In this document: positions 3,179 to 29,123 of the stretch, piece after piece
Numbering within the stretch: position 1 is the stretch's first letter
Layout of the letters: the number at the start of each line of letters is the position of its first letter
Source of the DNA: a virus
Length of the DNA: 35,621 bases
Strand: one strand, 5' to 3'
IMG/VR virus record: IMGVR_UViG_3300011113_000127
Coordinates: 1-35,621 of that record
Notes under the pieces: generated by a model
What the model saw: only the letters and a program-made list of their open reading frames with translations
What the model was told of the DNA's origin: nothing
The model's database searches: none
Position numbers and translations under genes: made by a program

Positions 3179-3180
3179 TT

Positions 3181-5132: not shown

Positions 5133-5271
5133 AAGTATCTTAGAACTGATTAGAGAACACTTAATTACATGGCCTCAGTCGGTGGATTCCCAGTTATGGA
5201 ATGACCGAGTTGATACCTTAATTAAGAGGGTTGAGGAGTATGAGGAAAAGAAAGATCCAAAACCTGAGTAG
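5125..5271 (+). CDS. Small charged helical protein, 48 aa; last gene of the left operon
   Basis: The start is in an ATGACTAA overlap with the preceding stop. The product begins MTKSILELIREHLITWPQSV, followed by a helix DTLIKRVEEYEEKKDPKPE. It is fully helical and charged. The operon terminator begins 20 bases after its stop, so it is the last gene. No family recognised. Confidence 0.55.
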   Translation: MTKSILELIREHLITWPQSVDSQLWNDRVDTLIKRVEEYEEKKDPKPE

Positions 5272-5290
5272 ATTACCTAGCAGTAAAAGG

Positions 5291-5324
5291 AAACCCCCAG
5301 TGCCGTAAGACTGGGGGTTTTTCT
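5291..5324. terminator. Bidirectional intrinsic terminator between convergent operons
   Basis: AAACCCCCAG (5291-5300) pairs perfectly with CTGGGGGTTT (5311-5320) around a 10-base loop and is followed by TTTTTC on the plus strand; A-rich sequence precedes it, so it can also end minus-strand transcripts. It lies 20 bases after the left operon's stop and 4 bases from the Toprim gene's stop. A terminator with the same CCCCCAG stem core occurs at 9194-9225. Confidence 0.9.
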
Positions 5325-5327
5325 ATA

Positions 5328-6134
5328 TTATCTGGCTATAAGCACTTTTTTGAGGGATTGAGACATCCTAAATAGACCATGAGCAACATAGTCATCATTG
5401 AAATCATGCCCGATTGTGTCGCTGATCCAATAAGGTTTGCCTGTCTCTTTGGCGATTCTTTCTCCGACACCACTGGCATCATTGTCAGCAACGACTATCC
5501 CATTGGGGATAAGCCTTGCTACTTCCTTGAGGTTGCCTGCACTGAAGCAGACATGGATTGTGTATCGCATTTTATTGGCTCTCATTACCGCCTGAATCGA
5601 CAAACCCGTAGCAAGACCCTCGCAGAAGATCGGGATACCTTTTGCGTCAAAGGTGAAAGTTGCCCCCTTCGTCTGTTGACCATAGAGAAACTTCTTATCC
5701 CCCTCGTCATTGATGAGTTGGCATCCTACTATTTTTCCATCTTTCCGCATCGCCACTACTAATTTGCCGTCATGCACTGGCATTTTTTCGTCTGGAAATC
5801 CTTTTTTTAACAAGTAGGGGTGGTGCATAACTTCAGTATGGTGCATGATCCAGCCCGCTTTTGCACAAGCACGATCAGCCAGAGCCTTGCGTTTTTGATC
5901 TTCTTGATCCCGCAGTTTTAGAAACTGTGGGGTTGTTGCATAATTTCCGTTATTTCGCCACATACTGGGTTTATCCATGGTTGCCCAGTTTTGCACCCAG
6001 CCAACATCGCCCATGAATTTATACCGCCCATTACGCTTGTGGGGATGGTCATCTGTTGAGGTTGCTACCCACTTAAAGGGAACAACATTGTTAATAATCA
6101 GCCCATGGGAACGGGCAAAGTCTTCAAACCTCAT
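5328..6134 (-). CDS. Toprim-domain primase-like protein, 268 aa
   Basis: The C-terminal half carries Toprim motifs: IFCEGLATGLSI with Glu172, VVADNDASGVG with Asp217 and Asp219, and GHDFNDD at about 242-248. Upstream, HHPYLLKKGF (about 104-113) matches the HPYLxxKG motif found before the Toprim domain in TraC-like and phage/plasmid primase-helicase proteins. Toprim residues bind the metal ions used for nucleotidyl transfer in primases. At 268 aa the protein has no helicase part; the SF2 helicase is encoded directly upstream with an ATGA overlap. The likely role is priming phage replication with that helicase. The N-terminal 75 residues show no zinc finger. It is the last gene before the convergent terminator. 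Confidence 0.85.
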   Translation of the reverse strand: MRFEDFARSHGLIINNVVPFKWVATSTDDHPHKRNGRYKFMGDVGWVQNWATMDKPSMWRNNGNYATTPQFLKLRDQEDQKRKALADRACAKAGWIMHHTEVMHHPYLLKKGFPDEKMPVHDGKLVVAMRKDGKIVGCQLINDEGDKKFLYGQQTKGATFTFDAKGIPIFCEGLATGLSIQAVMRANKMRYTIHVCFSAGNLKEVARLIPNGIVVADNDASGVGERIAKETGKPYWISDTIGHDFNDDYVAHGLFRMSQSLKKVLIAR

Positions 6135-7609
6135 CTATCTCTCCTCTTTGCCCATTGAATGTCTTTACTCCTGATCCACTTCTGGGTAGTCATGGATGGG
6201 GGGATGGTGGTGTCAGCCAAACCTTTAGGCCATACCCCAAACTTTTCCCGATACTTATGACTAGCCCAGTTGGGGTTATATCTTCTCTGCTCTGCGATAT
6301 ACAGGAGTTCGGAGTAAAAGATCTGCTTGTCATCTTTTTTTGCCTTGATACCCGATACCAGTTCGATTAACTCACCCGCTACGGCATCTATTTGGTTGCG
6401 TCTCTTGCGCACATGACCACAGGCAGGACAAGTATCACTGTTCTTGGGCCATAAATACCCACAGGATGGGCATTTAGACTCATTTTTGATCTTCTCAGTG
6501 GGTTCTTTCTTGGCTTTTTCTTGCTTGCCACGCAAAGAACGCACCCCATCCTCATATATTTCATCCCAATCACTACGAAAACGAATGTAGTTGCCAGAAT
6601 GATCAAGCCATAGGGCAAACTCCTTACCTTCGTGCGCTCGCATAACACGCCCCATCTGTTGGATATGTGAGGACAGGGATTTAGAAAAGGGTCGGGCAGA
6701 AACTCCGATCATTACATCCGATACATCAAAGCCACGGGTCAGAATGTCGGTGGCTATCAATCCGTTGATCTGAGTATCTGGCTTGGCAAAGTCTTCAATC
6801 GCAGCCTTCTTGAACTCGTCATTATCTTTGTAGGATATGGAGACAAAGTTATATCCCTTGATGGCAAACTGCTCTACAAGGTCTGCGCCATGGGCTACAC
6901 CCGAACAGAACACAATGGTCTTCATGGGTTTGCCATAGATTTCATGGGTCTTTTTGATCCACTCATCTACGATATCGCCCGTAATACGCATACCTCGTTC
7001 TGTTACTTGGTCAGCAGACCACTCGCCAGCGACCTTCTTTACCCCAGTCATGTCAATCTCTTTGGCAATATAGACCTTTAAGGGGGTAAGCCATTTCTTA
7101 TTGACTAGATCTTCGGTGGTTGCGCCACACACCACATTGGTATAGAGATCCCCTAGCCCCTTAGTAAACGGGGTTGCGGTAAGCCCTATGACCTTGATGT
7201 GGGGGTTATTTAGGATGAAGTCAGATGTCTGCTTCCTAGCGATATGGCACTCATCCACGATCATTAGATCGACCTCTGGAAAGTCTGATCTGCGTTCTAG
7301 GGTCTGGGCAGAACATACCTGAATGCGGTTACTGCGGTCAAACATCCAGTGGTCAGCCTGAAACACACCATGGTTGATGCCATATTTGGTCAAGCGCATA
7401 CTGGTTTGATCGACCAGCACCACCCGATCTAGGACCATGGATGTTCGTTTGTAGTTATTGGATGTGGCTTTCATAAGGTAGATTGCTACCTCAGTTTTGC
7501 CAAATCCAGTTGGTGCATAAAGTAATTGGGATCTATGACCACGCTTAAATCCCTCTCGTAGAGCATCTACCACGCTGATTTGATGCTCACGCAATTCTAA
7601 AGACTGCAT
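6131..7609 (-). CDS. DEAD/DEAH-box superfamily 2 helicase with C-terminal zinc ribbon, 492 aa
   Basis: Ordered SF2 motifs are visible: an N-terminal Q-like segment (LREHQ, 6-10), Walker A APTGFGKT (32-39), motif Ia (VLVDQT), motif II DECH (119-122), motif III TATP (144-147), motif V (ATDILTRGFDV) and motif VI QQMGRVMR (317-324). A four-cysteine zinc ribbon follows (C380, C383, C394, C397) and then a basic tail. This is the layout of phage replication or recombination SF2 helicases (UvsW/RecQ-independent, ResIII-like). It translocates on DNA using ATP and may act with the Toprim protein downstream. The SD TTAGGAG sits in a 15-bp palindrome, so translation may be controlled. Confidence 0.93.
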   Translation of the reverse strand: MQSLELREHQISVVDALREGFKRGHRSQLLYAPTGFGKTEVAIYLMKATSNNYKRTSMVLDRVVLVDQTSMRLTKYGINHGVFQADHWMFDRSNRIQVCSAQTLERRSDFPEVDLMIVDECHIARKQTSDFILNNPHIKVIGLTATPFTKGLGDLYTNVVCGATTEDLVNKKWLTPLKVYIAKEIDMTGVKKVAGEWSADQVTERGMRITGDIVDEWIKKTHEIYGKPMKTIVFCSGVAHGADLVEQFAIKGYNFVSISYKDNDEFKKAAIEDFAKPDTQINGLIATDILTRGFDVSDVMIGVSARPFSKSLSSHIQQMGRVMRAHEGKEFALWLDHSGNYIRFRSDWDEIYEDGVRSLRGKQEKAKKEPTEKIKNESKCPSCGYLWPKNSDTCPACGHVRKRRNQIDAVAGELIELVSGIKAKKDDKQIFYSELLYIAEQRRYNPNWASHKYREKFGVWPKGLADTTIPPSMTTQKWIRSKDIQWAKRRDR

Positions 7610-7615
7610 GAAAAC

Positions 7616-7630
7616 TCCTAACTGTTAGGA
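7616..7630 (-). promoter_or_regulatory. 15-bp palindrome covering the helicase ribosome binding site
   Basis: TCCTAAC and GTTAGGA flank a single base in a perfect palindrome. On the transcript, the right arm contains the AGGAG of the helicase gene, with the start 6 bases downstream. It can act as a protein operator, or as a hairpin that hides the SD. It follows a C6/G6 run. The SD string is a variant of the AACTGCTAGGAG element found elsewhere in the window, so part of the symmetry could be chance. Confidence 0.4.
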
Positions 7631-7656
7631 TTCCCCCCTAACTTGGGCTTGGGCAA

Positions 7657-7821
7657 TTATTTGCCCAGTTCTTTTTTAAGTGCTTCCTCTAACTGCGTTG
7701 CCAGTGCGGTAAGGAATCGGGCTTCTTCCAAAGCCTCTTTGAGTTTCCTTTCATTGGCTAGTTCGTATGCGGTGCGGATCGTATGCTTGATCGCTGTGCA
7801 TACATCGGAGTAATCGGTCAT
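7657..7821 (-). CDS. Small helical protein, 54 aa
   Basis: A 54-codon frame starts with an ATGA overlap to the ParB-like gene's stop. The product MTDYSDVCTAIKHTIRTAYE followed by a helix (NERKLKEALEEARFLTALATQ) and LEEALKKELGK is almost wholly helical and amphipathic, fitting a small coiled-coil or helical-bundle protein. Downstream are about 45 bases without a gene, holding a GGGCAA/TTGCCC hairpin around the stop codon. No family recognised. Support: overlap, codon-like composition and the GAAGGAGACAG SD before the start. Confidence 0.65.
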   Translation of the reverse strand: MTDYSDVCTAIKHTIRTAYELANERKLKEALEEARFLTALATQLEEALKKELGK

Positions 7822-8687
7822 TCTGTCTCCTTCTCTAGTTTTTTAAGTTTGTTCATTAATGATTTATTGGTTCTCATTAGTTCGGAGTTGCGGTTCTGAT
7901 ACATATCCCTGCCTTCACGCAAGGATTTGTTCTCAATCTCCAATACTCGGATCTGCTCACGCAGGTTCTTGATGGTATCTTCGGCATCAATCTTCTCAAT
8001 CTCCGAGGCATTCCACTGTCCGATAGCAATCTTGTCCCGTAGCAGGGTGTTTTCGTCTGCTAGTGAGTTCACTGTATCGGTCAGTTCGTTTACCTTTTGC
8101 TCCAGTTCTGCGGTGGGGCTCTCAGTTGTGACATCAGGCTTGGTGGTTGGTCTTTGGGTTGACGCCTTTTTCTTAGATTTGTCGGTCTTCATGGTTGTTG
8201 TGTTGCCATGCTTATCGACATAAGTAACAGTGGTTTGGGCTGGCGCTTTTGCTTCTTCTTGCATCGCTACACGCACACGCCCCACAGTCATGCTGGAGAC
8301 ATTCAGTTCCTTGGCAATATGGTTGTTTGACATTTTGCCGTATTCCTCATCGGCAAGCATAATGCGAATAATTGCACGAATATCTTCTGCTTTGAGACGA
8401 TTACCATGCTTGTTGTTGGCTTTCCATGCGTAAAACCTTGCTTCACGTAGTGTGCCCGTATGAACAATGGCTTCGATACTGGTTAGCCCATTGGCTTTAT
8501 AACCAAAGTAGCGGTGGAATCCATCGACTAGCCAGTACTCTGAGCCATCATGGAATACCTCGACTGGTGGGAATACCACGCCCTCACGCATAACCTCGGC
8601 ATATTCTTTCACTAGGTCTTGATCCAGCTTGACACGGGGCTGAGTCCCCCCATCGGTGCGGATGTTTAGTAGGTTTAGTTTCTTCAA
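7818..8687 (-). CDS. ParB/sulfiredoxin-fold domain protein with HTH and coiled coil, 289 aa
   Basis: The N-terminal 90 residues have the ParB nuclease-like layout: TQPRVKLDQDLVKEYAEVM, then VFPPVEVFHDG and the signature WLVDGFHRYFGYKANG (DGFHR, 55-59). A helix-turn-helix follows (SNNHIAKELNVSSMTVGRVR, about 120-140), then a Lys/Thr-rich linker and a long C-terminal coiled coil (about 190-289). The start is a TTG, because AGGAG lies 7 bases upstream and no ATG or GTG precedes the domain. In phages such proteins serve as DNA-binding nucleases or transcription regulators; partition cannot be assumed without a ParA gene. The gene overlaps the 54-aa gene by ATGA and follows the 52-aa gene closely. 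Confidence 0.88.
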   Translation of the reverse strand: MKKLNLLNIRTDGGTQPRVKLDQDLVKEYAEVMREGVVFPPVEVFHDGSEYWLVDGFHRYFGYKANGLTSIEAIVHTGTLREARFYAWKANNKHGNRLKAEDIRAIIRIMLADEEYGKMSNNHIAKELNVSSMTVGRVRVAMQEEAKAPAQTTVTYVDKHGNTTTMKTDKSKKKASTQRPTTKPDVTTESPTAELEQKVNELTDTVNSLADENTLLRDKIAIGQWNASEIEKIDAEDTIKNLREQIRVLEIENKSLREGRDMYQNRNSELMRTNKSLMNKLKKLEKETE

Positions 8688-15000: not shown

Positions 15001-15065
15001 TGAAGATGCCGCAGCAATGTGGCTTCTTCACGTTTTGGGGGGCTTAGAACACCCCCCCTTTTTTT
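15001..15065 (+). terminator. rusA terminator with a preceding hairpin
   Basis: GGGGGG (15037-15042) pairs with CCCCCC (15052-15058) and is followed by seven T (15059-15065). Just upstream TGAAGA-GCC/GGC-TCTTCA forms another hairpin (15001-15030, one mismatch). The T run is shared with the stop codon of the convergent giant gene; in that direction no T run follows the hairpin. Confidence 0.85.
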
Positions 15066-18000
15066 ACAGCCCAGAGTCTAAGCGCATCTGGATAATTCCC
15101 TCTAGCAGCTCCTGCTTAGAACGCTGTAAATCCGTGATCTCCTCTCTACGTTGATCAGGCGTGAAGCGCTTGTCCTTTACCTCACCAGTTATGCGAATCT
15201 GGCGGTTTAGGTCACGCAAGGCTACTTCCATGCCAGTCACATAGTCACGGGCAGAAATCAGGTCAGCATGCTTATTAAAGTACTTGTCAGCCTCATCTGC
15301 CTTATCACGCTCTAAGAGCTTCATATAGGTCTCGTACTTGTTATCGACCATCTTCTTAAAGTCGTAGAACAATTCCTCGTTACCACGGGCTACATCAGGG
15401 GCAACAAATGAGCCATACAGTGGGTTCTGTCTGGTTGTAGCGCTTGGGCGGTCTTCTCCAAACATATTGGATAGCCACTGAACAGCAGAGCCAGTCGTTC
15501 CAAACAAACCACGAACTAGGTGATCTGCCTCGATTGGATTCAGAACACGCTTATTTTCCGTAAATGGAATGCCAGTCAAAGCACTGATAACCTTGCCAAG
15601 CTGGGAAGTCGATGCGGTGTATTGCTCCACAGCGTCTAAGTCTTCCATACCCTTGGGAGTTACTGTTCCACCAGTAAAGAAGTTACGATTTAAAGTAATT
15701 TCTACAAATGGTTTAACACCTGTTGAGATTAGGTTTGGACCAAGCAAGGAGTCAAATGCAGCTTCACGCAGAGCAGTCCGTAGTCGTGTGCCATCCATCT
15801 CATTTTCAGTTCCCTGTGTGGTTACATAGTTGTAAGTTAGCTCAGGGATAGACTTAAACATGAAGCTGGCAGAGGTGTGCATTGGGATAAGGATGTTGTT
15901 ATCCAAGCCAGTCCAGTTTTTTGATAGGAAGATATTGCGAACTTTGGTTTGGTCATCGAGCTTCTGATACTCATCGTCATCACCAACAGCCATGCTGTAA
16001 AGCATTACATAGAAGCCAAAGGTAGCTCCAGTCTTAGCCAGCTGTGCTAAAGCAGCGCCACGGGCTTTGCCAGTCAAGCGTTTGCCAACTAAGGACATCG
16101 CCAAGATATCAATCTGCTGAGCGTATGCGTTCATAAACGATACAGTCTTGGTCAAGAACTGGGCGTGTCTAGCGCTACCACGCTTGAGGAAGTCGATTAC
16201 GTTGTTGGCTTGAAGCAACGCAAGCATCTCATCGCCAGTCTGTCTGAGGGTATTGTTATATACCGACACACGCTGTCCGTAGTCTGAGGCATCGCCTACA
16301 CGATCTAGCAGACCCATCAAGGCATCAAACTTGTTCTTTTCCATTAAACCGATCTGTTGCTTGTACTCAATCTCTGGGGTACGGGTATAGGACTGATATC
16401 CACCAATACCATAGGACTTGAGCATATCGACTACAGGATCATCAGATTGCAAGGCTTTAATGAAGCCACGGAATGTGCCAGCCCAGACCCTAGTTGGATC
16501 TTTTAATCCAGTGACCAAAGCTGCGGTAGGCGCATCCATGAACAGCTGACGGATCTGGAACTGAGGCCATAAGGTAACGCCTCTGCGTAAGCCATTTGCC
16601 AAGGCTGCAAGCATATCCATGGCTGGCATGCTGATATTCTCCATGCCTATTACAGACTCAGCAATCAACGGATCTTTGATCTCAATAACGATTCTGCGAC
16701 CATTAACAAGAATGTTGGTGCGAACTGCTCCTTCTGGGGTACGACCTTCCTCTGGGAATACAGCAATCTGTCCCTTCTTATTACGGGTAGCGTACTCCTG
16801 TGCCACACGATTGGCAGCGTAGTTACGCATGGAGTTACGGGTAATCATGGCTACGTTGTGGAGCATGTTATCCACGATGTCATCAATATCCTTAACGACT
16901 ACAGTATCCTCAAAGCGCTTCTCCTTGCCGACATTGGTTAGACGTTTCACGCCACCCATTTGTGAGGCTTGGTGTAGGTCTTCCATGTCATCCTGGATGC
17001 GATACCAAGGCACATAGTCCTTAATGCCTTTAAGCTGTTTAGCTCTTTTCTCGCTAATAATCTTGCCAAACAACATCATATCAATCATGTTGGAGTTGAC
17101 TTGAGTCCAGTTATCGAGCATGGTGCGCAGCTCTGGATTTGTTTTTTCCAAATCGCCATAAAACTTGATCTGCTCTTCGTCAAAGCGAACTTTCTTCTTG
17201 GCGATGTTAATCATCCGCAAGCCTTTCTCAGCTTGAAGGATCTCATCTAACAGCAAAGCCTGACGAGCAGCCGAGGTTCTTGGATCACGCATCTCGTTGT
17301 TTAGGTCTTGGAGTTCTTTCTCTCTAGCCTTGAACTCATCCATGATGCTCTTAGAGCGCTTGGCTTCAAAGAATGTATTAATCATGTCAGTAGCCCGTTG
17401 CAAGCCTATACGCTCAATCAGATCATGCTTAGCCATTAACACATTAGCCATGGAGAATGGGCGTCTAATAGCTTGGAACATCTGGGTTTTGGCGTTAAAC
17501 GCCAGCGCACCACGGATAATGACCTCAGAGGCAATATGACCAGCATGCAAGGCGTTAGTAACGGCAATAGAGGCAATAGCTCTCATTTCGCCATCACGCA
17601 ACATACCCTCTAAACCTCTGGCTTTTTGCAACGCCAAATCAGCCATCTCTAAACCAGCACCATACCAAATATTCTTATTGCGAACAGAAGTTATGGCACG
17701 GACAATTTTTCCACCCATAGCCTGTGAAGCCATCAGAGGAGCATCTTTGGCATCTCTGTAGACTTGTCTTGCACCTCTAAATCCACCAAGCAACATATCC
17801 TTAACGCCACGGCTAGGCTTAACTGGGGTATGGTTTAAACCATCCTCTTGGAACTTCTTATCAAAGTCTTCTACGTTATTAAGAAACTTAAGTGCGTCTG
17901 CGTTATCAATGACATATTCAACCAGCATCGTATTTGTAATGCGTTGTTGATCGCCAGACATAATACGGGCAAACTCACGATGAATGGCTCTTTTGTTATC

Positions 18001-21000
18001 AAATCCTAGGATATCTTTAATTGTTTCCAACAGGCGCTGCATTGCTTTCTTAAATTTCTGCCAGCCACCGCCTAGCTGTGCCTTGAGTAATGGTTCAGCA
18101 TTAACCGCCCAGTACTCTGATGGGTTGATGAACTGGTATAGCTTATGATCTGGAAGGGCGTTAGTAGCTTTTCTGTAATTTTCTTCTGTTGGCTTCTGTA
18201 GATAATCAAACACCGCCTCAAAGTAGTCTTGTGATACTTGATCTGTATTGTCTTCAATCGCCTTTTGTAAAGCGTCAGCCCATGCATTGACTACCGCAGT
18301 CTGCGCCTCTGGAGTCATCATCTGCTCCATGGAGTGGGCAATCTCATGGCGCATGGTCTTGTCTTTTGGTAAAGGACCAATAATGTCAAAACTCTTATAT
18401 ATTGTTACAAGACGTTTTACAGGCTCAAAATTACCAGACACGCCAGTCACTTTAGGTTGTTGAATTGATAATGACAGACCATCTAAAACTGCTGGATAGC
18501 GTGTAGCAAGGGCATCAACAACCCTGTATGTATCGTTATCTATGTTATCAGCTGCTAATTCAGCAGCGGCTTTAGCTCTAAACCATTCCGCTGTCTTGCG
18601 AGGTGGCTTGGTTTTGGCTATCTCTTTATTGATCTCTTTCTTTGCTTGCTCAAGGAATGTAAGCTCACGCTGGATATTGATGCCAATGTTGCCCTTAATG
18701 ATCTGGCGTTTGATAGCAGATATGCCACGGCTTAACTCAGCGCTGCGCTTAATCTTTTCAGCCCTAATCTCATCTCTGCGAGTGTCAATCTCTTTTTTGG
18801 TAATGCCAGTAAATTCCTCTAGCGTTGTCTTGGGAGCAAACATCTTACGAGCTTGTTCTTGGCGGGTAATTGCTTTAAAGAACTGCTCTTTCTCTTTCAT
18901 CAGGTAATCCATCGCTTTCACAAACTCAGATGGATCACGGGTGTAATTCAGCATGGATGAGCCACGCTTGTAGAAATCTCTGTTGCCTAGGGCATCAGTC
19001 AAATTCTTATCGAGGAAGTAATCGCCACCAGAGCGCTTGTTTGATGGCACTTCTATCATATATGTATCGCCACGCTTGGTAATCCGTATGACGTTGTCAT
19101 CGCTGGCAATAACACCACCTAGCTCATCAAGGAAACGCAGCATGTCCTGTGGATTCTTAATGCGCACATCGGCTTGCTTCTTCTCACGCTCAAAGTCAAA
19201 CTGGCGGGATAGAAGGATACCCTGTCCTGTTGTGCCATCGTTCTTGGTGTAAGTAAGGATCTGACCAGGATAGGTTGCAAATCCAGCCAGGATGTTGCCA
19301 GTAATCATCCAGCGTTTCTCACGCCTGACGGTTGCACCCTTATCAAAGATATCAATGATTGGGATGTATTCGCCTTGCTGGGTCTCTGGGTTGAGGTAGT
19401 TGACTACCGACTCTTTTTCCAGCGTATAGTTCGTGCCGATCTGCGAGAAGTTGAGAGTCAGGCTTCTGGAGTCACCGTTGGCTACAGCCAGCGTCATCTT
19501 CCAGTCTGATCCAGAGGCTGGGTTAGCCGTACGCTTGACGTTCTTGATATCGGTAATCATGCCGTAGACATATACGCCATTCTTATCTTTGATTGTGACT
19601 GGATCACCAATCTGAAGGTTTTGTAAGACAGAACGGATCTGCCCAGCCATGAGGCGTTGTCTACCTTGCTGCTCATCTATCTTGATGGGATCAGTCTCTT
19701 TCTCCTTGAGATCTGCCATCTTCTTGTTGAAGTATTCGTTCTCACGCTGATCGAACTCGTCAATAAAGTCCTTGGCGATCTGCTGCTTGGTCTTGCCATC
19801 AAGGTTCTTTTGAACCAGATCACGGACTTCTTGGCTGCTGTAGGGCTGAACTGTGCGGTTAACTTCTACACGCTCCATGTAAGCGGGAGCAGAGAAAATA
19901 GAATCCTCACCCTTGTCCTCAGTAATTGGCTCTATGGCTAATGTCTCAGCCTCTAAGTCAAAAGCCTTCGCCTCTAACTTGTTGCTTCCCATACTGTTCT
20001 CACGCTCCAGCAATTCGTTGTAGCGGTCAATCAAGTCAGAATAAACTTCTTCCTGTTGGGATAGTGGAAGGATTGGAATATAGCCAGTAAACCTACGGAT
20101 GTCGGCTTCAAGCGCTTCGTTGGTATCCTCAGAAATCGCCAGCATCTTGTCACCACCCAGTGCCTCATGGATCTCTGGGTTATCACGCAGATACTCTTGG
20201 GCTACCTGACCACCGTAGTCATTCATAAAGTCGACCACGCCCTCAGCAGTAACGGCTGACTTACGGGATGCTGTGGTGTTGGCGTTGAGCGATGCCATCT
20301 TCTTGAGCAGTACGGCAGCTGGGCGCATCTCTGCTGGAATATCAGCCATCATCTGTGAGTAGGATGGGGTAATTACTTGACCAGTCCTGTGAACACGACC
20401 CAACATCTGCATGTGGGTATCGATGTTCTTCTCAGGCTGAACAATAATCATGTGGCGTTTTTTCTTATCCTTAAACTCCTTCTTGGCATGCAGAGACAAG
20501 CCAGTAGAACCTGCCTGATTCAGGATGATGACATCGGTTTCGCCACTGTTAAAGTTGCGCACCGCATTAACACGCTGCTTGATATTGGCTGATCTGCTGG
20601 TAAGGATAGGCTCGCCAGTAGCGTAGTTCAGGGTAATCGTGCGCCCTGTAATCTCATCGGTCTTATAGCCAGCCTTACGCAACTCGTTGTGCATGTAGTC
20701 GATAGGCGAGATTGGGGCTGAGCCAAAGCCAGAGTTTTGGATTTGCTCACGAATCTGGTTGTATCGTGCAACCAGAGTCGGACCAAGCTCTTCATCGGTT
20801 AATCTGCGCTTTGTCTTTTTGCCATCAGGAGCTTTGATGGTAATCATGCGCTGCTTATCTAGGTAGCGGACATATAGATCTGCAAAGGATAGATCGACCT
20901 TGTCACCGACCTCAATTCCCATATCCTCGGCATAGTTCTGTAAAAACGAGCCCATGGTGTTGGATACGGTCATTACTACCTTCTCACCAGCCTTGAGACG

Positions 21001-24000
21001 GTTGATAGCGTGACTGACAGATTCTTTAGCCTTCAATGACAAGAGCATCTGGTCAATCAGGTTGTGCATAACAGAGCCAAAGTTAGCACCTTGGACTGTT
21101 GTTTTCTCACCACCAAACTCAGCGACCTTCTTGGCTTCTTTATCAAATTGCTTCTGCATCTGCTTTAAAACAACATCTTTGCTGCGGGAGAACGCTAGGA
21201 TGTCACGCATGGCGGTTGCCATGTTCTCAGCGGTCTGCTTGTCTACTGGAGTGTCTACAGTGTTGTATGCCACACCAGCAAAGGTTCTTTCTCTACGGAT
21301 ATATTGACCATCCTTGGTCAGCATGGTTGCCACAATCTGTTGCATTGGCACACCACCACGCTTGATGGCTTCTGCCAGCTCTGCGGGTTTGTCTACTGCC
21401 AGCATCATGTTTGTGCTGGAATACAGATCCATCACATCTGGGCGCTTAGCGTAGGTAGCCGATGAGAAGAATGTGCCAAAGGCATTACGTACCAGATTGC
21501 GTACGAATCCAGCACGACCAGTGGTAAGGCTCTCGCCCTTCTTGGCAGCCTCTTTCTGATCCTTAGTCCTTGCTTGAGTTTCACCAGCGCCACCAGCGTT
21601 GTGCGACTCATCAAAGATCATGTAGTTGCCTAGGCCAAAACTGCTAATAAAGTTCTGGCGTTCTGTGGCTTTTCCCTTGACGTTCTGGAGCTGGCTATAG
21701 GTAGTAAAGATTACCTTGTAATCGCCAAGGCTTTCCTTATTACGCATCTCTTCCATCATGCCATCGAGCGCTTTACCAGTCTTAGGAGCTTTCAAAGTCA
21801 GGTTGATTTCCTCAATCTGATCGCCTTTCTTGCGGAGAAGCTGATAGGGAATGGATTCGCCACCGTTGGTGATAAATATCTTAGGCTTGGTTGTATCTAG
21901 TCCAAGCTCTTTGGTCATGCCGATATCGTCTAGATCTCGGATCATGTCGGAATATAGGTTTGGCTTCTCGGTAACAAAGATCGGGATCTTGTCGTTGCGC
22001 AAAGCGTAACGAATCATTGCAGCCACTACACGACCTTTACCAATACCAGTCTGGTCTCCAATGATGAAGCCCTTACCAGCCTCAGCGTTACGGATGGATA
22101 AGGCTAGAGCATCAATCTGTTCTGCGGAGAAGTCCTCACGCAGTGTCTCAATATCCATGCTCAGACTGTCTGCAACATACTCATCAATGTTGCCCATTTG
22201 ATCTTCGACCTTCTCAAGCGATTGCTGAATCGAATCACGCATCGCCCGTGGCACTAGCGTACCAACGGATGTAGCCTGAGAGCTTGGCTCGTAGGTAGCC
22301 TGTTGCTCGGTCTCGACCTCTTCGCCTCTGCGCTCTACGAGTCCAGACTTGACTCGCTCACCTGAGACAACGCTAGGTCCACCCAGTCCGCTAGGTTTAC
22401 GTTCTTCAGGGACTCTTCTGCCAGTAGGTTCGACTCCTTCACCTCTTGGAATGGGTTCTCCTTCAACTCTGCCACGTTCAGATACGTCAGTAGGTTTAGG
22501 TTGTTCTGCACGAGGTTCTGCCCTAACTCCGCTGGGTTCTCCACCAGTGGTAGGTCTAGCAGCCGACACGCCTGTAGGCTCGCCTCCTCTGGGTTCTCTT
22601 CGTTCTGTGCCAGCTGGCTCACTCGGTCTGACAGCGCCTCGACCCACTGCTTGTGGTTCACCTTCCCTAGTGGCAGCCTCACCGAGGTCAGCTCTGGCGG
22701 GGCGCTCAGCCCCTCTGGATACCATGCGACTAGCTTCATCTAGCTTCTCCTTTAATTGCTCATATGAGCTATATATTTTTGGAAGATCAGAAGTAGGTAA
22801 TTCTCTTTCTGATTTACCATCACCATTAATCACAATGACATCTACAGGGTATGCAGCCCCCTGTTTCTTATATAAATCACCAGCCACGGTGAAATGGTCT
22901 ACTACGTTGTATTTGTTGTAGAGATTAAAATAAAAATTACGTTTGGCTGGAGAGCGATACCCCTCTCTTCTGCCATCTTCGTTTTGTGCAAGAACACCGC
23001 CAACGATTAAAACAGCCTTACCATTTGTTGGCTTCATGTTCTGTAAAGACTTCATTACGATGGCATGGTCTATTTCTCTGGTTTTAAACCCGTCAACATC
23101 AAAGTTTTCTCCAGTAGATCCAAACGGAGGATTCTCAATAACAACGTCTACTAAAATTGCTTCTTGTTTTAAAGCATTACCAATAGTAACTTCAGCTTTA
23201 GGGAAAACCCGTTTGAGCATTTCAGCACGGGTAGCGTTTAGTTCATTAACTGTAACGCTGTTAGGGTTAGCTCCAATTAGAAGCATCCCGTTACCAGCAG
23301 TCGGTTCATAAACAGTATTGTTTTGATTAATTCCAGCTAATTGGCTGGCAACATACGCTAATGGAGCTGGGGTAGAGTAAGCCTGTTCTCTAACGCTGGT
23401 AGAGGTACGGACTGCTAAATTAGGCTGGCGATTATATAAACTTATCAAATCATCATAGATCTGATCTGGTTTCTTATTGCTTTGCACAATATCACGAGCA
23501 GTCAATACGATGCCTACCTCAACGGCTTCGTCTGCCTCTTTTGCCTGTGCAGTGCCAGGTTCTATCTTCTGACCTGTAATGTTGGTAATAAACTTACGGG
23601 CTTCGATAATGTCCTTAAATCCGTTGCCATCCAAAAAGTGCTTAGAGATGTCCTCGGCAATCTTAAACTTGCCACTTGGATCCATCAGATCAACAGCACC
23701 CTCAGTGGTGTCTGGTAATTCAGCCTTTTGGACTTGCTCGTAGGTATCCATGTCATCTACCAATGACTTGGCAGAGGGGTCATCACGGACAGCGTTGTAC
23801 CACTGTTTGAGGTATGGCTTAACTTTATCGCCCAAATCAGCAATCATTGCCTTAGCGTAAGCTGCAAAGGTACGAGCACCCTTCTCAATGTGATAGCCAG
23901 ACAGGGTAATACCATCAATCAGGAACTCTGGATCTATGCCTGAGTTCAGACGATTGAGCTTGGAGCGTAAGCGGTTACGAGCTTTGGTCGCTGCATCCTC

Positions 24001-26955
24001 AGTAAATATCTTATTGGGCGTGACCTGAATAGCTGGTGCTTCTTCTTTCTTTGGCAACTCGACTACTGTTTTAGGAGGCTGCAAGAAAGCTGTGAGCTTT
24101 TTCATATCATCAGATCCAGCAAACGGACGGAATGATGATGTAATACCAGCTTCGTTAGCCTCTTTTGAAACAAATACCTTGCCGTTTTTTTGATTTATTA
24201 ATCCAGCTTTTTCTAACTTATTAAGTAATGGCTTTGCAGAATCCTTATAGCTTAAACCGTTACCAGCCAGGACTATCTGAGCGGCAGCATTTATTTCATC
24301 AATATTAAATTCTTGAGGAATAATTTTGCGAACTGGTTTAGCAGCTTCCGCAGCTTCTTTCTTTTCAGCCTGACGCTGGCGATTAATCTCTGCTTGAGTT
24401 AAGGTTGGAGTTACTGGCTTTGCACCAGGCTCTCTAATAATTACCTTATTGCTTACTTCGCTTGGCTGGAATCCAAACTTGCCATAGAATTGAGATAACT
24501 GTTCAGCTGTCATCCCGCCTTCTTCAAGCTGGGCTGGCTCACCATAAATTGTGTAGTTGTTCTTATCAGCAACTTCTATCAAATCTTTAATGGCTTGAGT
24601 AGCTTTACCCTGTTTTCGCTGATCTTTATCTACACCAATGAAGTGCCAAGTTATTTGATTTGATTCGCCATAACCTAACATTGGTGAACGATTAGGATAA
24701 TTTGGATCAGCAAATACAATTTCGCCTGGATTAAGAGCTAGACGAACACCATCTTTTTCAATGGTTCTGTACTTCTTGCCACCCTTAGTTTCATAGGTGC
24801 GTGGATTATCAAAGCCAAGAACTTTGTATCCCTTGTCTGCCATATCAACAAACAATGGGAAGGTTAATTTTTCACCCTCATCATCAGTAACTGCTTTACT
24901 TGGAGCGCCAGATGGCATGCCAAGAGTTTCTTTAACTGTATTTAAAGTTTCTTGTGGCGTTGCACCAATTTCTAAATCTAGTTCTTTAGCAAGTGGATTT
25001 ACATTTCTTGCTGTAACTTTTGTTGGATCTTTCTCAAGCTCCTCTATTGCGCCTCTAATCCTAAATGCTTGCTCCGACTTTAAATCTATTGGTTCCTCGG
25101 CTAGAGCCTCTGCTACCTCTGGCTCACGCACTACTTCTTCGGCAACTGGCTCAGCTACTGGCAACGCCATGAGCTGGTCTGGCGTATAGGCAGCCAACTC
25201 ATCTACGCTAGTGATTAAGCGTGGGCGGTTCTCATCTTGCTCTAGGAAGCCGTAAATCTGTTCGCCATTGGATAGCCGTTGCTCTGCCTCCATGCGAGAT
25301 GCAACAGGCTCGCCACGTTCTTGGATATTGGAAAGCAGTTCTTCATCTACGGGTGGAGCAACTTGGGGGGCAGCATGTGGAGCTTGGATTAACTGGCTAA
25401 TCTCTTGCTGAATTAGGTTCTGGCGCTCATTAAATATCTGTAATTCTTCTTCGGTCAAATTGGGATCGAGCTTGCGTTGCTCAATCATTTGGAATTGACC
25501 CTCTAAGTTTTGAACTTGACTAGCGACTTCTGGTGCTAAGCCAGCGGTCTGCAACAGCATTGGTGTAGGCGTAGGTGCTACTCGTGGTGCTGGTGCTATA
25601 GCCTCTATCTCTGCTTCCTCTATGGTTGCAGATGGAGCAGGTGTAATGGGAGGGGTTACACCTGGGGCAGGAGGAGCTGCTGCGGCTGGAGGAACGCCCT
25701 CACCAAGATCCAAACGCATCTGCGCATCAATATCAGCTTGAGTAGGTGCTTTGGCTGCCTTCTCTGCCTCTTCCTTGGTCTTGGCTACTGCGCCACGGTA
25801 TGCACCTGGACCAGCGCCACCCATTGCACCAAGGACAAAGTTAGCAAAGGACTCTTCGCCAATCTCTTTGATGACGGCTTTGTTGATACCTAGGTCTTTG
25901 GCAATGCCTTCTAGGAACTCTTGTGTACCTTCTTCTGCTGCGCCAGCTGTAGTACCCAGTGCTATACGACCAAGGCGGTTCTTGACTGGACCAGTCATTA
26001 GCTTGTCAAACTGACCAGTAATTAACTTACCAGTAATAACGCTACCAAATGCCGATACAGAGCCTTGTAATTGAGCTGCATACTCTGCTGCTTTATCAGC
26101 AACTACTTGACGGGCTTCTGCTGGATTAACGCCATCTTCAACCATCTTCTTGAAGTATGGGCTGGACTGCATTAACTGTTCATCAGATAGGCTAGAAACA
26201 TATTTCTGCGCATCTTGTACTGCTTCACCAGCACCCATACCAAAGCCGACTGTACCAACAGCCTTACTGCTTCCTCTGGTTACGACTGCTGTAGTAATGA
26301 TTGGAGCTAGAGAGCCTAAGACCTGAGATCCTTGTAGGGCATAACCCATGAAGGATGGGTTCTTACCAAAGGATAGGTTCTCAACACTGCGATTCTGGAT
26401 AGCCTCTAACAGGTTTCCTTCTACCTGAGAGTCTGCAATAGCCTGTTTACCAGCTGCTGATACGCTTTCACGGAAGCGTTCTGATACTTTCTCTCCTGCA
26501 TCTGCCAACTGAGATAAGCCAGGAATACGAGGCAGTCCAGAGATAGCACGATCTACAGCAATCTGTTCTTGCGTTTGGCGTTCTTGTTGCTTCTCAAAGG
26601 ATTCGCCAGTAGCGCTCTTAATAAACGCCCTAGCGGTATTGGTAAATAGCTGGGCTGGACCCTTCTTGACAAGCTCTTCGGCAAAGGTCATTGGCCCTAC
26701 TTTAGATACAGGAGTAATCCCCTGTTGCTCGACTACTTGGCGGGGGACATTACGGATTGCAGATTCAATACCTAATGGGATGGCTGCGGTAGGACCAACA
26801 GCCCCAGCAGCAATCATCTTGGCTGGATCAAGGATCTGGCTAGGCTCTTCCTCTTGCGGTGTTAGATACTTGGCAAACGGATTTTCGGGAGGCGCTTCAG
26901 CTGGTTGTTCAACGTATTTTGCAAACGGGTTGACGTTCTCAGGCTTAGTCGCCAT
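15064..26955 (-). CDS. Giant polyvalent protein, 3963 aa: GNAT, N6-adenine methyltransferase, strawberry-notch helicase, metallopeptidase-like and LPD38-like parts
   Basis: Order of parts, residues approximate. 1-35: two NPFAKY motifs. 200-400: Gly/Ala-rich helices like ejection proteins. 705-850: GNAT fold (GVDKDQRKQGKAT near 780, FYGKFGFQ). 1190-1370: N6-adenine methyltransferase with EPTAGNG (1217) and catalytic NPPFG (1275). 1408-1555: disordered Arg/Gly/Glu/Pro linker. 1600-2400: strawberry-notch helicase with GDQTGIGKGR (Lys1640), DESH (1782) and QMLGRVHRTGQ (2183-2193). 2870: HEIAH with Glu2947/2954 as possible third zinc ligand. From 3400: LPD38-like RRGVTLWPQFQIRQLF. The methyltransferase-helicase pair resembles P1 DarB, an antirestriction protein packaged in the virion. 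The likely role is injection with the DNA to protect it. Last gene of the virion operon. Confidence 0.87.
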   Translation of the reverse strand: MATKPENVNPFAKYVEQPAEAPPENPFAKYLTPQEEEPSQILDPAKMIAAGAVGPTAAIPLGIESAIRNVPRQVVEQQGITPVSKVGPMTFAEELVKKGPAQLFTNTARAFIKSATGESFEKQQERQTQEQIAVDRAISGLPRIPGLSQLADAGEKVSERFRESVSAAGKQAIADSQVEGNLLEAIQNRSVENLSFGKNPSFMGYALQGSQVLGSLAPIITTAVVTRGSSKAVGTVGFGMGAGEAVQDAQKYVSSLSDEQLMQSSPYFKKMVEDGVNPAEARQVVADKAAEYAAQLQGSVSAFGSVITGKLITGQFDKLMTGPVKNRLGRIALGTTAGAAEEGTQEFLEGIAKDLGINKAVIKEIGEESFANFVLGAMGGAGPGAYRGAVAKTKEEAEKAAKAPTQADIDAQMRLDLGEGVPPAAAAPPAPGVTPPITPAPSATIEEAEIEAIAPAPRVAPTPTPMLLQTAGLAPEVASQVQNLEGQFQMIEQRKLDPNLTEEELQIFNERQNLIQQEISQLIQAPHAAPQVAPPVDEELLSNIQERGEPVASRMEAEQRLSNGEQIYGFLEQDENRPRLITSVDELAAYTPDQLMALPVAEPVAEEVVREPEVAEALAEEPIDLKSEQAFRIRGAIEELEKDPTKVTARNVNPLAKELDLEIGATPQETLNTVKETLGMPSGAPSKAVTDDEGEKLTFPLFVDMADKGYKVLGFDNPRTYETKGGKKYRTIEKDGVRLALNPGEIVFADPNYPNRSPMLGYGESNQITWHFIGVDKDQRKQGKATQAIKDLIEVADKNNYTIYGEPAQLEEGGMTAEQLSQFYGKFGFQPSEVSNKVIIREPGAKPVTPTLTQAEINRQRQAEKKEAAEAAKPVRKIIPQEFNIDEINAAAQIVLAGNGLSYKDSAKPLLNKLEKAGLINQKNGKVFVSKEANEAGITSSFRPFAGSDDMKKLTAFLQPPKTVVELPKKEEAPAIQVTPNKIFTEDAATKARNRLRSKLNRLNSGIDPEFLIDGITLSGYHIEKGARTFAAYAKAMIADLGDKVKPYLKQWYNAVRDDPSAKSLVDDMDTYEQVQKAELPDTTEGAVDLMDPSGKFKIAEDISKHFLDGNGFKDIIEARKFITNITGQKIEPGTAQAKEADEAVEVGIVLTARDIVQSNKKPDQIYDDLISLYNRQPNLAVRTSTSVREQAYSTPAPLAYVASQLAGINQNNTVYEPTAGNGMLLIGANPNSVTVNELNATRAEMLKRVFPKAEVTIGNALKQEAILVDVVIENPPFGSTGENFDVDGFKTREIDHAIVMKSLQNMKPTNGKAVLIVGGVLAQNEDGRREGYRSPAKRNFYFNLYNKYNVVDHFTVAGDLYKKQGAAYPVDVIVINGDGKSERELPTSDLPKIYSSYEQLKEKLDEASRMVSRGAERPARADLGEAATREGEPQAVGRGAVRPSEPAGTERREPRGGEPTGVSAARPTTGGEPSGVRAEPRAEQPKPTDVSERGRVEGEPIPRGEGVEPTGRRVPEERKPSGLGGPSVVSGERVKSGLVERRGEEVETEQQATYEPSSQATSVGTLVPRAMRDSIQQSLEKVEDQMGNIDEYVADSLSMDIETLREDFSAEQIDALALSIRNAEAGKGFIIGDQTGIGKGRVVAAMIRYALRNDKIPIFVTEKPNLYSDMIRDLDDIGMTKELGLDTTKPKIFITNGGESIPYQLLRKKGDQIEEINLTLKAPKTGKALDGMMEEMRNKESLGDYKVIFTTYSQLQNVKGKATERQNFISSFGLGNYMIFDESHNAGGAGETQARTKDQKEAAKKGESLTTGRAGFVRNLVRNAFGTFFSSATYAKRPDVMDLYSSTNMMLAVDKPAELAEAIKRGGVPMQQIVATMLTKDGQYIRRERTFAGVAYNTVDTPVDKQTAENMATAMRDILAFSRSKDVVLKQMQKQFDKEAKKVAEFGGEKTTVQGANFGSVMHNLIDQMLLSLKAKESVSHAINRLKAGEKVVMTVSNTMGSFLQNYAEDMGIEVGDKVDLSFADLYVRYLDKQRMITIKAPDGKKTKRRLTDEELGPTLVARYNQIREQIQNSGFGSAPISPIDYMHNELRKAGYKTDEITGRTITLNYATGEPILTSRSANIKQRVNAVRNFNSGETDVIILNQAGSTGLSLHAKKEFKDKKKRHMIIVQPEKNIDTHMQMLGRVHRTGQVITPSYSQMMADIPAEMRPAAVLLKKMASLNANTTASRKSAVTAEGVVDFMNDYGGQVAQEYLRDNPEIHEALGGDKMLAISEDTNEALEADIRRFTGYIPILPLSQQEEVYSDLIDRYNELLERENSMGSNKLEAKAFDLEAETLAIEPITEDKGEDSIFSAPAYMERVEVNRTVQPYSSQEVRDLVQKNLDGKTKQQIAKDFIDEFDQRENEYFNKKMADLKEKETDPIKIDEQQGRQRLMAGQIRSVLQNLQIGDPVTIKDKNGVYVYGMITDIKNVKRTANPASGSDWKMTLAVANGDSRSLTLNFSQIGTNYTLEKESVVNYLNPETQQGEYIPIIDIFDKGATVRREKRWMITGNILAGFATYPGQILTYTKNDGTTGQGILLSRQFDFEREKKQADVRIKNPQDMLRFLDELGGVIASDDNVIRITKRGDTYMIEVPSNKRSGGDYFLDKNLTDALGNRDFYKRGSSMLNYTRDPSEFVKAMDYLMKEKEQFFKAITRQEQARKMFAPKTTLEEFTGITKKEIDTRRDEIRAEKIKRSAELSRGISAIKRQIIKGNIGINIQRELTFLEQAKKEINKEIAKTKPPRKTAEWFRAKAAAELAADNIDNDTYRVVDALATRYPAVLDGLSLSIQQPKVTGVSGNFEPVKRLVTIYKSFDIIGPLPKDKTMRHEIAHSMEQMMTPEAQTAVVNAWADALQKAIEDNTDQVSQDYFEAVFDYLQKPTEENYRKATNALPDHKLYQFINPSEYWAVNAEPLLKAQLGGGWQKFKKAMQRLLETIKDILGFDNKRAIHREFARIMSGDQQRITNTMLVEYVIDNADALKFLNNVEDFDKKFQEDGLNHTPVKPSRGVKDMLLGGFRGARQVYRDAKDAPLMASQAMGGKIVRAITSVRNKNIWYGAGLEMADLALQKARGLEGMLRDGEMRAIASIAVTNALHAGHIASEVIIRGALAFNAKTQMFQAIRRPFSMANVLMAKHDLIERIGLQRATDMINTFFEAKRSKSIMDEFKAREKELQDLNNEMRDPRTSAARQALLLDEILQAEKGLRMINIAKKKVRFDEEQIKFYGDLEKTNPELRTMLDNWTQVNSNMIDMMLFGKIISEKRAKQLKGIKDYVPWYRIQDDMEDLHQASQMGGVKRLTNVGKEKRFEDTVVVKDIDDIVDNMLHNVAMITRNSMRNYAANRVAQEYATRNKKGQIAVFPEEGRTPEGAVRTNILVNGRRIVIEIKDPLIAESVIGMENISMPAMDMLAALANGLRRGVTLWPQFQIRQLFMDAPTAALVTGLKDPTRVWAGTFRGFIKALQSDDPVVDMLKSYGIGGYQSYTRTPEIEYKQQIGLMEKNKFDALMGLLDRVGDASDYGQRVSVYNNTLRQTGDEMLALLQANNVIDFLKRGSARHAQFLTKTVSFMNAYAQQIDILAMSLVGKRLTGKARGAALAQLAKTGATFGFYVMLYSMAVGDDDEYQKLDDQTKVRNIFLSKNWTGLDNNILIPMHTSASFMFKSIPELTYNYVTTQGTENEMDGTRLRTALREAAFDSLLGPNLISTGVKPFVEITLNRNFFTGGTVTPKGMEDLDAVEQYTASTSQLGKVISALTGIPFTENKRVLNPIEADHLVRGLFGTTGSAVQWLSNMFGEDRPSATTRQNPLYGSFVAPDVARGNEELFYDFKKMVDNKYETYMKLLERDKADEADKYFNKHADLISARDYVTGMEVALRDLNRQIRITGEVKDKRFTPDQRREEITDLQRSKQELLEGIIQMRLDSGL
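22335..22739 (-). CDS. Candidate overprinted gene inside the giant gene's linker, 134 aa
   Basis: In the +1 frame relative to the giant gene, an ATG preceded by AAAGGAG with a 7-base spacer opens a 134-codon frame (MKLVAWYPEGLSAPPELTSV ... ending VSESSLDS). It lies exactly over the Arg/Gly/Glu/Pro-rich disordered linker, where the main frame is under weak constraint. The product is helical, rich in Leu, Asn and Glu, and not low-complexity like the main frame. Against: the opposite strand also shows long open frames here because of base composition, so openness alone proves little. I recognise no family. Confidence 0.32.
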   Translation of the reverse strand: MKLVAWYPEGLSAPPELTSVRLPLGKVNHKQWVEALSDRVSQLAQNEENPEEASLQACRLLDLPLVENPAELGQNLVQNNLNLLTYLNVAELKENPFQEVKESNLLAEESLKNVNLADWVDLALSQVSESSLDS

Positions 26956-26972: not shown

Positions 26973-29123
26973 TTATTTGCCTAGCGCTCTTTGCGCTGCA
27001 CCAGGACCAAATATAGCATCAAATTGAGCTCTTGTTTCAGCAGTATCCATATTTTTTAACTGTTGGACAGCTGCTTTTGGAGGAACTTTAGCAGGTGCAC
27101 CTGGAGGAGGAGTGCCTGGAGCAGGAGCAGTTGGAGCTTGGAAGCCAAGAGTTTCACGCAGTTGTGGTGATAATTCGTTCATTGCAGCGGCACGAGCATC
27201 CCTATTCATAGCGCTAGGATCGTCTTTGTACTTCCTGTAGTTAATACCACCAGGTTTAGCTGTATCTTTTAGATTATCTAAGGCATTGTTAAATAAGCTG
27301 TTATAGGCAGTCTGCGCTCTTGTAAAGTCTAGCTGTTTATTCCTAGATGCAGTTTCTCCACGAGCAGCGGCAGTAGCCTCAGCCGAAGCTCTACGCCCAA
27401 GCATCTGACCAAGGGCAGTCTGTTGAGATCCCAAAAGGGCAGTCTCACGAGCAAACTTAGACTTCTCACGCTCACCAGCCTGTTGCAAGAGTAACTTGTT
27501 CAGATCACTCTGTTCACGCTGAGCCTGTGAATAACTTCTAAGTCCCTCAATACCACCTAGTCCTAGGTTAGATAAGGCGTGTTGAGATGTACCAGCCATT
27601 GTTCCAAGACCAGCCATAGCTAATGCTCGATATGGAGCTGTCTTACGAATGTTTTCTATTTCTGCTCTTGTTTTAGCTTCCTCAGCCTTTGATTCTGCAT
27701 AAGGATCACCCTGTTCTAAAGCCTTTTGCCGTCTCTTAATGTCTTCTAGCATTAAGTCTTCGTAGGCAGCAAACTTGTCTTGAACCTTATTTCCCGTGGC
27801 AAACGCTACAATCCCGCCACCAGCCATTTCTTCTGGAACCATATCGCCTGTAGCAATGCTGGCAATACCAGAACGCAAAGCAGGAGCCATGATCTGATCC
27901 GACTCAGGATTCATAGCCATGCGTCTACGAATCATTAACTGTCTTTCAACCATGTCTACTTCTAAAGGCGTTAGACCTGGATTTTCTAGTAGCGCCTCTA
28001 ACTGGTCAGTAGTCATCGTTTTGATGTCACCGCCAGTAGCATAGGCTAGACCACCTTTTGCCATTTCTTTAATTTGACCGCCCTTAGCCTTAAATCCACC
28101 TGACATGCCATAGATACCAAGGGCAGACATACCTAAGCCGCCAAGCTGTGAGGCTGCACTTGGAGGTGCTGTGTATACCTGTTGGGCGGCTTGAGATAAA
28201 GGAATACCACGAGTCATATCAGACATAAATGCCAATTGCTGATATGGGTAGTTACGCTGCTTGAGGAAGTCCTGATACGCCAAATCCAGACCCTGCTGAG
28301 CCTGAGCTTGCTGAACAGCTCCTACGTTTTGTAGTCCTTGATTAATTGCTTGCTGTTGTCCAAACTGAGTTTGACCAAGCTGACCTAGAGCACCAGCGCC
28401 TTGGAGAGCCTGTCCGTAACCCTGTAGTCCAGCAGTCGTACCAAACTGTTGAGCCTGTTGAGCAGCTTGGAAAGCATTCTGCGTACCAGTGGCTTGAATG
28501 TTAGCCATCTGTTGCTGGAGATTGCGATTGCGTTCTTGCTCAGCCAATACTTGTCTTGCACCACCATAGGTTCCCTGACGGGCAGCACCAAGATTTGCAC
28601 CAATGTTACGCATCTGTGCATCTCGGAACGCTTCATTCTTTTGAACATCAACAACATTCTGCATATAGGGAGACATATAAGCAGCAGTCGCATTTGGATT
28701 AGTAGCCATGTTGCGATAGTCTGCCCCTGCGCCTAATGATCCTAAGCCAGCTGCTCCAGCCATGGCAGTTCCTGCGCCAACCTGACCAGCTACCTGTTGA
28801 TTCGTTATATTTTGGAATGCCCGTTCTTGCGTAGGATTAAACCCAGCAATTCTCTGACCACCATAGGCTTGATAGGGGTTCTGGTTAATGTCTGTAAGAG
28901 CCTCAGACTTACCAAGCATGGTCTCTACATATGGACGAGCATACTCAGGGATAGAGGTTTGAGTAACAGTCTGGCTTGCTGGGGGAGGACTGCCGCCACC
29001 ACCGCCACCGCCCTTACCACCGCCACCACAGATGTATCCACCACCGAGCTTACGCTGGGTGACGCTATCGCCTAGGGGCTCACCAAAGGCTTCTAACTCT
29101 CTACGAGACCAATTCTGTTTCAT
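26973..29123 (-). CDS. Gly/Ala/Gln-rich internal virion (ejection-like) protein, 716 aa
   Basis: The N-terminus has MKQNWSRRELEAFGEPLGDS and a Gly run (about 28-44), followed by the conserved IPEYARPYVETMLGKSEAL. Residues 90-330 are Ala/Gln/Gly-rich helices (AQQAQQFGTTAGLQGYGQAL), typical of ejection proteins. AKGGLAYATGGDIK and AGGGIVAFATGNKV are short Gly motifs I know from virion proteins of aquatic phages. The C-terminal half is a coiled coil (KAEEAKTRAEIENI) and a Pro-rich tail. The likely role is ejection into the host with the DNA. It overlaps the GNAT gene by 23 bases and precedes the giant gene. Confidence 0.75.
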   Translation of the reverse strand: MKQNWSRRELEAFGEPLGDSVTQRKLGGGYICGGGGKGGGGGGGSPPPASQTVTQTSIPEYARPYVETMLGKSEALTDINQNPYQAYGGQRIAGFNPTQERAFQNITNQQVAGQVGAGTAMAGAAGLGSLGAGADYRNMATNPNATAAYMSPYMQNVVDVQKNEAFRDAQMRNIGANLGAARQGTYGGARQVLAEQERNRNLQQQMANIQATGTQNAFQAAQQAQQFGTTAGLQGYGQALQGAGALGQLGQTQFGQQQAINQGLQNVGAVQQAQAQQGLDLAYQDFLKQRNYPYQQLAFMSDMTRGIPLSQAAQQVYTAPPSAASQLGGLGMSALGIYGMSGGFKAKGGQIKEMAKGGLAYATGGDIKTMTTDQLEALLENPGLTPLEVDMVERQLMIRRRMAMNPESDQIMAPALRSGIASIATGDMVPEEMAGGGIVAFATGNKVQDKFAAYEDLMLEDIKRRQKALEQGDPYAESKAEEAKTRAEIENIRKTAPYRALAMAGLGTMAGTSQHALSNLGLGGIEGLRSYSQAQREQSDLNKLLLQQAGEREKSKFARETALLGSQQTALGQMLGRRASAEATAAARGETASRNKQLDFTRAQTAYNSLFNNALDNLKDTAKPGGINYRKYKDDPSAMNRDARAAAMNELSPQLRETLGFQAPTAPAPGTPPPGAPAKVPPKAAVQQLKNMDTAETRAQFDAIFGPGAAQRALGK

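Follow-up and report, generated by a model that had tools for sequence, protein, structure and literature searches.

A 134-codon open reading frame that lies in the +1 frame inside a giant viral gene is, with near certainty, a genuine overlapping protein-coding gene. We draw this conclusion from sequence comparison; expression of the gene has not been shown. The gene is very probably old, and it is common to many phages, plasmids and cyanobacteria. The host gene encodes an N6-adenine methylase followed by a strawberry-notch helicase, and we lean, by a modest margin, towards the view that the nested gene is made from its own start and that its product is a partner of this methylase-helicase dyad, with both expression and binding being inferred.

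The nested gene and its host gene

We analyzed a 35,621-nucleotide stretch of viral DNA (IMG/VR record IMGVR_UViG_3300011113_000127, positions 1 to 35,621), which we call the window. The nested gene lies on the minus strand at 22335..22739, with its ATG at 22739-22737 and its stop codon TAG at 22337-22335, and it is enclosed entirely by a main frame of 3963 codons (15064..26955, minus strand). A Shine-Dalgarno sequence, AAAGGAG (22747..22753, minus strand), is situated 7 nt upstream of the nested ATG, the spacer being AAGCTAG, and a stop codon TAG in the +1 frame (22740..22742, minus strand) abuts the start codon. The initial annotation had reported this ORF, its 134 codons, the AAAGGAG motif and the 7-base spacer, and these details held exactly.

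The giant protein (3963 amino acids) contains a methylase domain with an MTase_II match and a main-frame NPPF motif (22969..23397; main-frame residues 1187-1329), the AAA_34 half (21229..22083; residues 1625-1909) and the Helicase_C_4 half (19987..20658; residues 2100-2323) of a strawberry-notch helicase, and an LPD38 polyvalent-protein domain (15418..15978; residues 3660-3846), all encoded on the minus strand. The host gene fits the published definition of a dyad (PMC5512222), in which an adenine methylase with NPP(F/Y) and TP motifs has an SF2 helicase C-terminal to it. No LPD36 domain was listed in a domain search of the giant protein at E ≤ 0.01. In one cyanobacterial protein (L203, 2450-8548), the methylase part resembles mad2 (mads_2) of PADLOC (E = 1e-13). 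The giant gene of the window stands among consecutive tail and virion genes, and the gene before it (26973-29123) matches a DNA ejection protein (phrog_4287). Because of this position, it is possible that the giant protein is packaged and ejected. The initial annotation's statement that the nested product would come from the same late mRNA as the giant protein remains an inference.

The length of the ORF by itself is weak, merely suggestive evidence of coding. When main-frame amino acids were held fixed and synonymous codons were reshuffled 20,000 times, the chance of an open +1 run of at least 134 codons was P = 0.0166 with the codons of the region and P = 0.0138 with the gene's codon usage. 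The antisense strand is also open in the window, as the initial annotation had cautioned, but this openness is not common to homologs: the most open antisense frame has no stops in 27 of 49 homologs and one to five stops in the other 22, whereas the +1 frame is open in all 49. We therefore rejected an antisense gene. A chance ORF is rejected on the comparative evidence from homologs.

The +1 frame and its start signals are kept in homologs

Using the +1 protein as a query we found 31 loci in IMG/VR. Including the window, 32 of 32 loci keep the ATG, an SD-like motif and the same offset within a long main frame; they comprise 20 distinct +1 proteins, the others being 47–94% identical to the window's. 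Because this sample was selected by the +1 protein itself, we repeated the search with a helicase query, which is blind to the +1 frame. Among the 80 loci selected in this way, 66 match the +1 profile at E ≤ 1e-3. Three of the 14 that do not match have no linker, and the other 11 are distant (41–48% helicase identity), although most of these 11 still have a +1 ORF at the same place.

An SD-like motif precedes an ATG or GTG in 146 of 155 nested or candidate ORFs (ATG in 139). A +1-frame stop codon is found immediately before the start in 51 of the 146 ORFs with such a start, and within 5 codons of it in 103, the window included. The initial annotation had proposed checking whether the +1 frame and its Shine-Dalgarno stay open in homologs; both are kept, and this attempt at refutation failed.

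Selection on the overlap

The codon-position test used 49 sequences (reduced from 54; two were dropped for incomplete flanks and the rest as duplicates). Third positions of the main frame differ at a rate of 0.61 upstream and 0.59 downstream of the overlap, compared with 0.29 within it. In the overlap, the most variable positions are the first positions of the main frame (0.45), which are the third positions of the +1 frame. Aligning the overlap by the main-frame protein gave the same picture (0.45, 0.37, 0.30). Identity over the overlap averages 50% for the +1 protein and 37% for the main frame. When the full length of the giant gene was scanned blind (50-codon windows, 13 sequences), third positions varied less than first positions in only 4 of 140 scan windows, all of them within 22749-22371. 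Depressed synonymous change in the main frame, for which the initial annotation had also suggested looking, is thus found; the depression is strong and falls exactly over the overlap.

To estimate selection we made a simplified, OLGenie-like count of single changes, and did not use OLGenie itself. In 44 close pairs, dNN/dNS for the +1 frame is 0.13 (95% interval 0.08–0.20). This means that, per site, a change affecting both proteins occurs at 0.13 times the frequency of one affecting only the main frame, which indicates purifying selection on the +1 protein. For the main frame, dNN/dSN is 0.52 and dNS/dSS is 1.05, so that main-frame changes silent in the +1 frame are as frequent as doubly silent changes (there were only 8 doubly silent differences). 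Cyanobacterial genes show the pattern again: with pairs picked by flank identity, third-position variation is 0.42 and 0.33 in the flanks and 0.11 in the overlap. One earlier comparison had picked pairs by +1 identity, which is biased toward a coding reading; it was redone with the pairs picked by flank identity that are reported here, and the result was robust.

Phylogenetic distribution of the nested gene

In a helicase-anchored survey of viral contigs, genome contigs and plasmids (for plasmids, 12 of the 377 records that had a helicase match were included), we collected 184 distinct helicases, 171 of which have a complete linker. The +1 profile matches 141 of these linkers; in another 14 a +1 ORF is in place but escapes the profile at E < 0.001, and 16 are clearly without one. 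Since the segments counted here had also served to grow the iterative profile, the independent supports are a +2-frame control and a profile-profile comparison. Matches are confined to the +1 frame (141 of 312 +1 segments versus 0 of 152 +2 segments), and the independently built alignments of the phage and cyanobacterial families match each other with a probability of 97.1 and an E-value of 6.6e-11 over 114 columns.

Our helicase tree has 170 of the 184 sequences as tips, 13 being excluded for incomplete linkers and one for being under 300 amino acids. The 140 positive tips are all in one 151-tip clade (support 0.926), with no clear absence inside it. Carriers of the +1 family include phages, plasmids and cyanobacterial genomes. 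Outside the clade, the nested gene is absent from Bacteroidetes genomes, from Pseudomonas, Cupriavidus and Vogesella plasmids, and from an Acinetobacter phage, so a methylase-helicase dyad can exist without it. The distant giant gene of Bacteroides phage BS-TP4 (L039), another from outside the clade, contains a +1 ORF at the corresponding position (5608-5971). Its profile E-value is only 0.11; the C-terminus of this ORF resembles the nested family, which is suggestive. DNA and protein searches of INPHARED with the nested region gave no match. Scanning genome contigs with the +1 alignment alone also found none, which was a failure of sensitivity because a helicase scan of the same collection found carriers.

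Linkage to the host gene and origin of the linker

Profile hits are nested in the host gene in 162/162, 153/155 and 239/240 cases, and the exceptions fall in two broken copies. In a copy from a Leptolyngbya MAG (L219, 3265-9244) a frame shift joins the nested family and the helicase in one frame, and L253 (3599-3824) is a decayed copy. Pairwise identity of the +1 protein correlates with that of the methylase flank (r = 0.80) and of the helicase flank (r = 0.70).

The distance from the methylase NPPF motif to the helicase Walker A motif is 0.996 times the nested length plus 233 codons (r = 0.82, n = 122). This fit left out 13 loci with a spacing of 440 codons or more, and if they are included r is 0.40. 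In these long-spacing loci (L110, L114, L129, L139, L144, L152, L172, L182, L197, L199, L204, L237 and L246) the two domains are 454–577 codons apart, which mostly exceeds what the nested gene explains; in many of them there is apparently an extra insert between the nested stop codon and the helicase. Outgroup genes without the nested ORF have a spacing of 240–263 codons in 8 of 13 cases, and outgroup spacings of 334–661 also occur.

Because spacing tracks nested length, and outgroup spacing is short, the linker appears to be as long as the nested gene and to have come with it. The initial annotation's overall reading, an overprinted gene in the giant gene's linker, is supported by comparison, but its suggestion that a disordered linker allowed a new gene to arise may have the direction reversed. 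The +1 protein is more conserved, folded and rich in hydrophobic residues, and since linker length follows nested length, the linker is more likely there as a consequence of the main frame crossing the small gene. From the match in length and the weaker constraint on the main frame, we infer that the small gene arrived as a unit, through insertion or through the fusion of adjacent cistrons, and that the main-frame linker is secondary. In evolutionary terms, the small gene would once have been an insert or a cistron in its own right, with the main-frame linker being the overprinted newcomer.

Properties and predicted fold of the nested protein

Nested proteins have a median length of 132 residues and a median net charge of −7.2 per 100 residues, and 141 of 146 are acidic. 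Hydrophobic residues make up a fraction of 0.34 of the +1 protein versus 0.12 of the main frame. AlphaFold predicted a fold with confidence from two independent alignments, one of 13 phage sequences and one of 24 cyanobacterial sequences. Each model has a pLDDT of 86.2 and a pTM of 0.82, and the two agree in the predicted order of secondary structure: two short strands, then helices. The initial annotation had described the product as not of low complexity and as looking helical; its predicted fold is mostly helices. In a phage alignment of 24 members, the residues M, W, P, L, R, N and A occur as invariant ones, and W, P, L, R, N, A and V account for most of the near-invariant ones. Judged from sequence alone, the conserved residues do not look catalytic.

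We found no sequence relatives of the nested protein in PHROGs, Pfam, NCBIfam, PADLOC or PDB sequences, and no fold relatives by Foldseek at E ≤ 0.001; the best VIA-align Z-scores for the models were 2.2 and 3.4. Missing relatives of either kind do not prove a new fold. No paper describing this nested gene was found in the open-access literature that we searched. Plasmid pAQ6 of Picosynechococcus sp. PCC 7002 carries a nested ORF (L275, 6405-6908 plus stop). A proteomics study of this strain (PMC3364912) mapped 364 orphan peptides against the chromosome, and its passages do not mention pAQ6.

A putative partner of the dyad, and alternatives

We propose that ribosomes would start independently at the internal Shine-Dalgarno and ATG within the giant mRNA. 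The +1 reading of the overlap would then give a 134-residue acidic, mostly helical protein, and the main-frame reading of the same bases a near-neutral, disordered Arg/Gly/Glu/Pro-rich linker from the N6-adenine methylase to the strawberry-notch helicase. The small protein would be a dedicated, non-enzymatic partner that binds or regulates the dyad, and nesting would keep the partner's gene in cis with it. We infer a partner role because the gene occurs only inside this enzyme's gene (bar the two broken copies) and is co-inherited with both flanks. This strict linkage and co-inheritance are shown by the sequence evidence, as are the coding constraint, the start signals and a predicted fold, but the partner role rests on linkage alone, with no known family or fold and no data on binding or expression. 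For the dyad, section 14 of PMC5512222 proposes a role in methylating or protecting DNA as it enters; that the nested protein is expressed, is a physical partner and has a role in such protection is inferred.

The main rival, which remains possible, is that the nested gene is real but encodes an independent effector, for host takeover or anti-defence, that shares the mRNA without contacting the giant enzyme. In its favor, the protein is small and acidic like DNA mimics (its charge is negative in 141 of 146 cases), and accessory proteins are a usual product of overprinting (PMC8227390). Against it, the gene is never away from the dyad except in broken copies, it is also on cyanobacterial plasmids and in bacterial genomes, and it forms one lineage with a conserved core, whereas effectors tend to be patchy.

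A selfish out-of-frame homing endonuclease of the ShiLan kind, open in the host frame, is an unlikely identity or ancestor for the nested ORF. A closely similar architecture has been reported for phage methylases and for a helicase-methylase, Pacc40 gp60 (PMC11855218); here, too, the insert looks disordered when read in the main frame, and spacing is short in dyads that do not have the nested gene. However, there is no match to HNH or any other endonuclease in Pfam (E ≤ 10 for the window's protein, E ≤ 1 for 7 diverse relatives), the conserved residues are not a catalytic set, and no clear uninvaded member exists within the 151-tip clade. Presence is not patchy, no transfer between divergent hosts is seen, and the gene is co-inherited with both flanks. 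We rejected an HNH homing element on the Pfam nulls, the clade-wide presence and this co-inheritance.

A programmed frameshift into the +1 frame, giving a truncated methylase with a +1 tail, is very unlikely. SD-like elements are able to stimulate frameshifting, but the +1-frame stops immediately before the start (51 of 146) or within 5 codons of it (103 of 146, window included) argue against entry from upstream, and the spacing and ATG are typical of initiation; we rejected it. That there is no protein, and that an RNA or DNA signal or composition bias keeps the frame open, is all but excluded: length alone reaches just P of about 0.015 and so allows it, but variation tracks +1 codon positions and +1 amino acids, the protein profile is conserved between phages and cyanobacteria, and RNA structure at the nested start is rejected by a fold z-score of −0.47.

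Our preferred reading, a partner of the dyad, has a bolder form, which we would as readily doubt as accept: that the nested protein is an unrecognized third component of methylase-helicase DNA-protection machines, encoded out of frame in the enzyme's own gene in phages, plasmids and bacteria alike, with the small gene being older and the disordered linker an overprinted by-product of fusing methylase and helicase through it.

Implications for annotation

On plasmid pGMOR1 of Gloeobacter morelensis (L276), the nested ORF (2914-3363) is annotated as the hypothetical protein WP_230844304.1. The giant gene is annotated from 3360 only (3360-7838), although the open main frame already begins at about 1900 and takes in the methylase motif. 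Here annotation called the nested gene and then truncated the giant gene at that point. More generally, a new protein family has been overlooked because annotation rarely calls genes within genes. The nested gene is traceable from phages through to cyanobacteria, and it accounts for a 'disordered linker'. Its protein is a testable candidate partner of enzymes whose supposed role is to protect phage and plasmid DNA on entry, and the result suggests scanning other polyvalent giants for dips in third-position variation.

Comparison with known systems

The archetype of the polyvalent methylase-helicase dyad is P1 DarB (Iyer et al. 2017, PMC5512222). As in DarB-type dyads, the host gene here encodes an N6-methylase (TP and NPPF motifs) and then a strawberry-notch SF2 helicase, plus LPD38. 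P1 darB has no NPP[FYW] motif, and tblastn searches of phages with 1234-aa and 448-aa queries did not list P1. The words 'overlapping' and 'frameshift' do not occur in the text of PMC5512222, and its section 14 names no third component.

In ShiLan-type elements (Arsenault et al. 2025, PMC11855218), an out-of-frame HNH gene is inserted in a phage methylase and the host frame stays open. The nested gene resembles these insertions in being an other-frame gene within a methylase gene, with an open host frame that reads as a disordered insert. It differs in having no HNH match, in having a conserved SD and ATG at one fixed site, and in being co-inherited and present across a whole clade of 151 tips that includes phages, plasmids and bacteria; its product looks structural and not like a nuclease. 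Gene E within gene D of phiX174 (PMC8227390) is likewise an internal out-of-frame gene. Unlike E/D, the nested frame here is more constrained than the host frame, and what is overlapped is a dispensable linker, part of a giant enzyme that occurs in viruses, plasmids and bacterial genomes.
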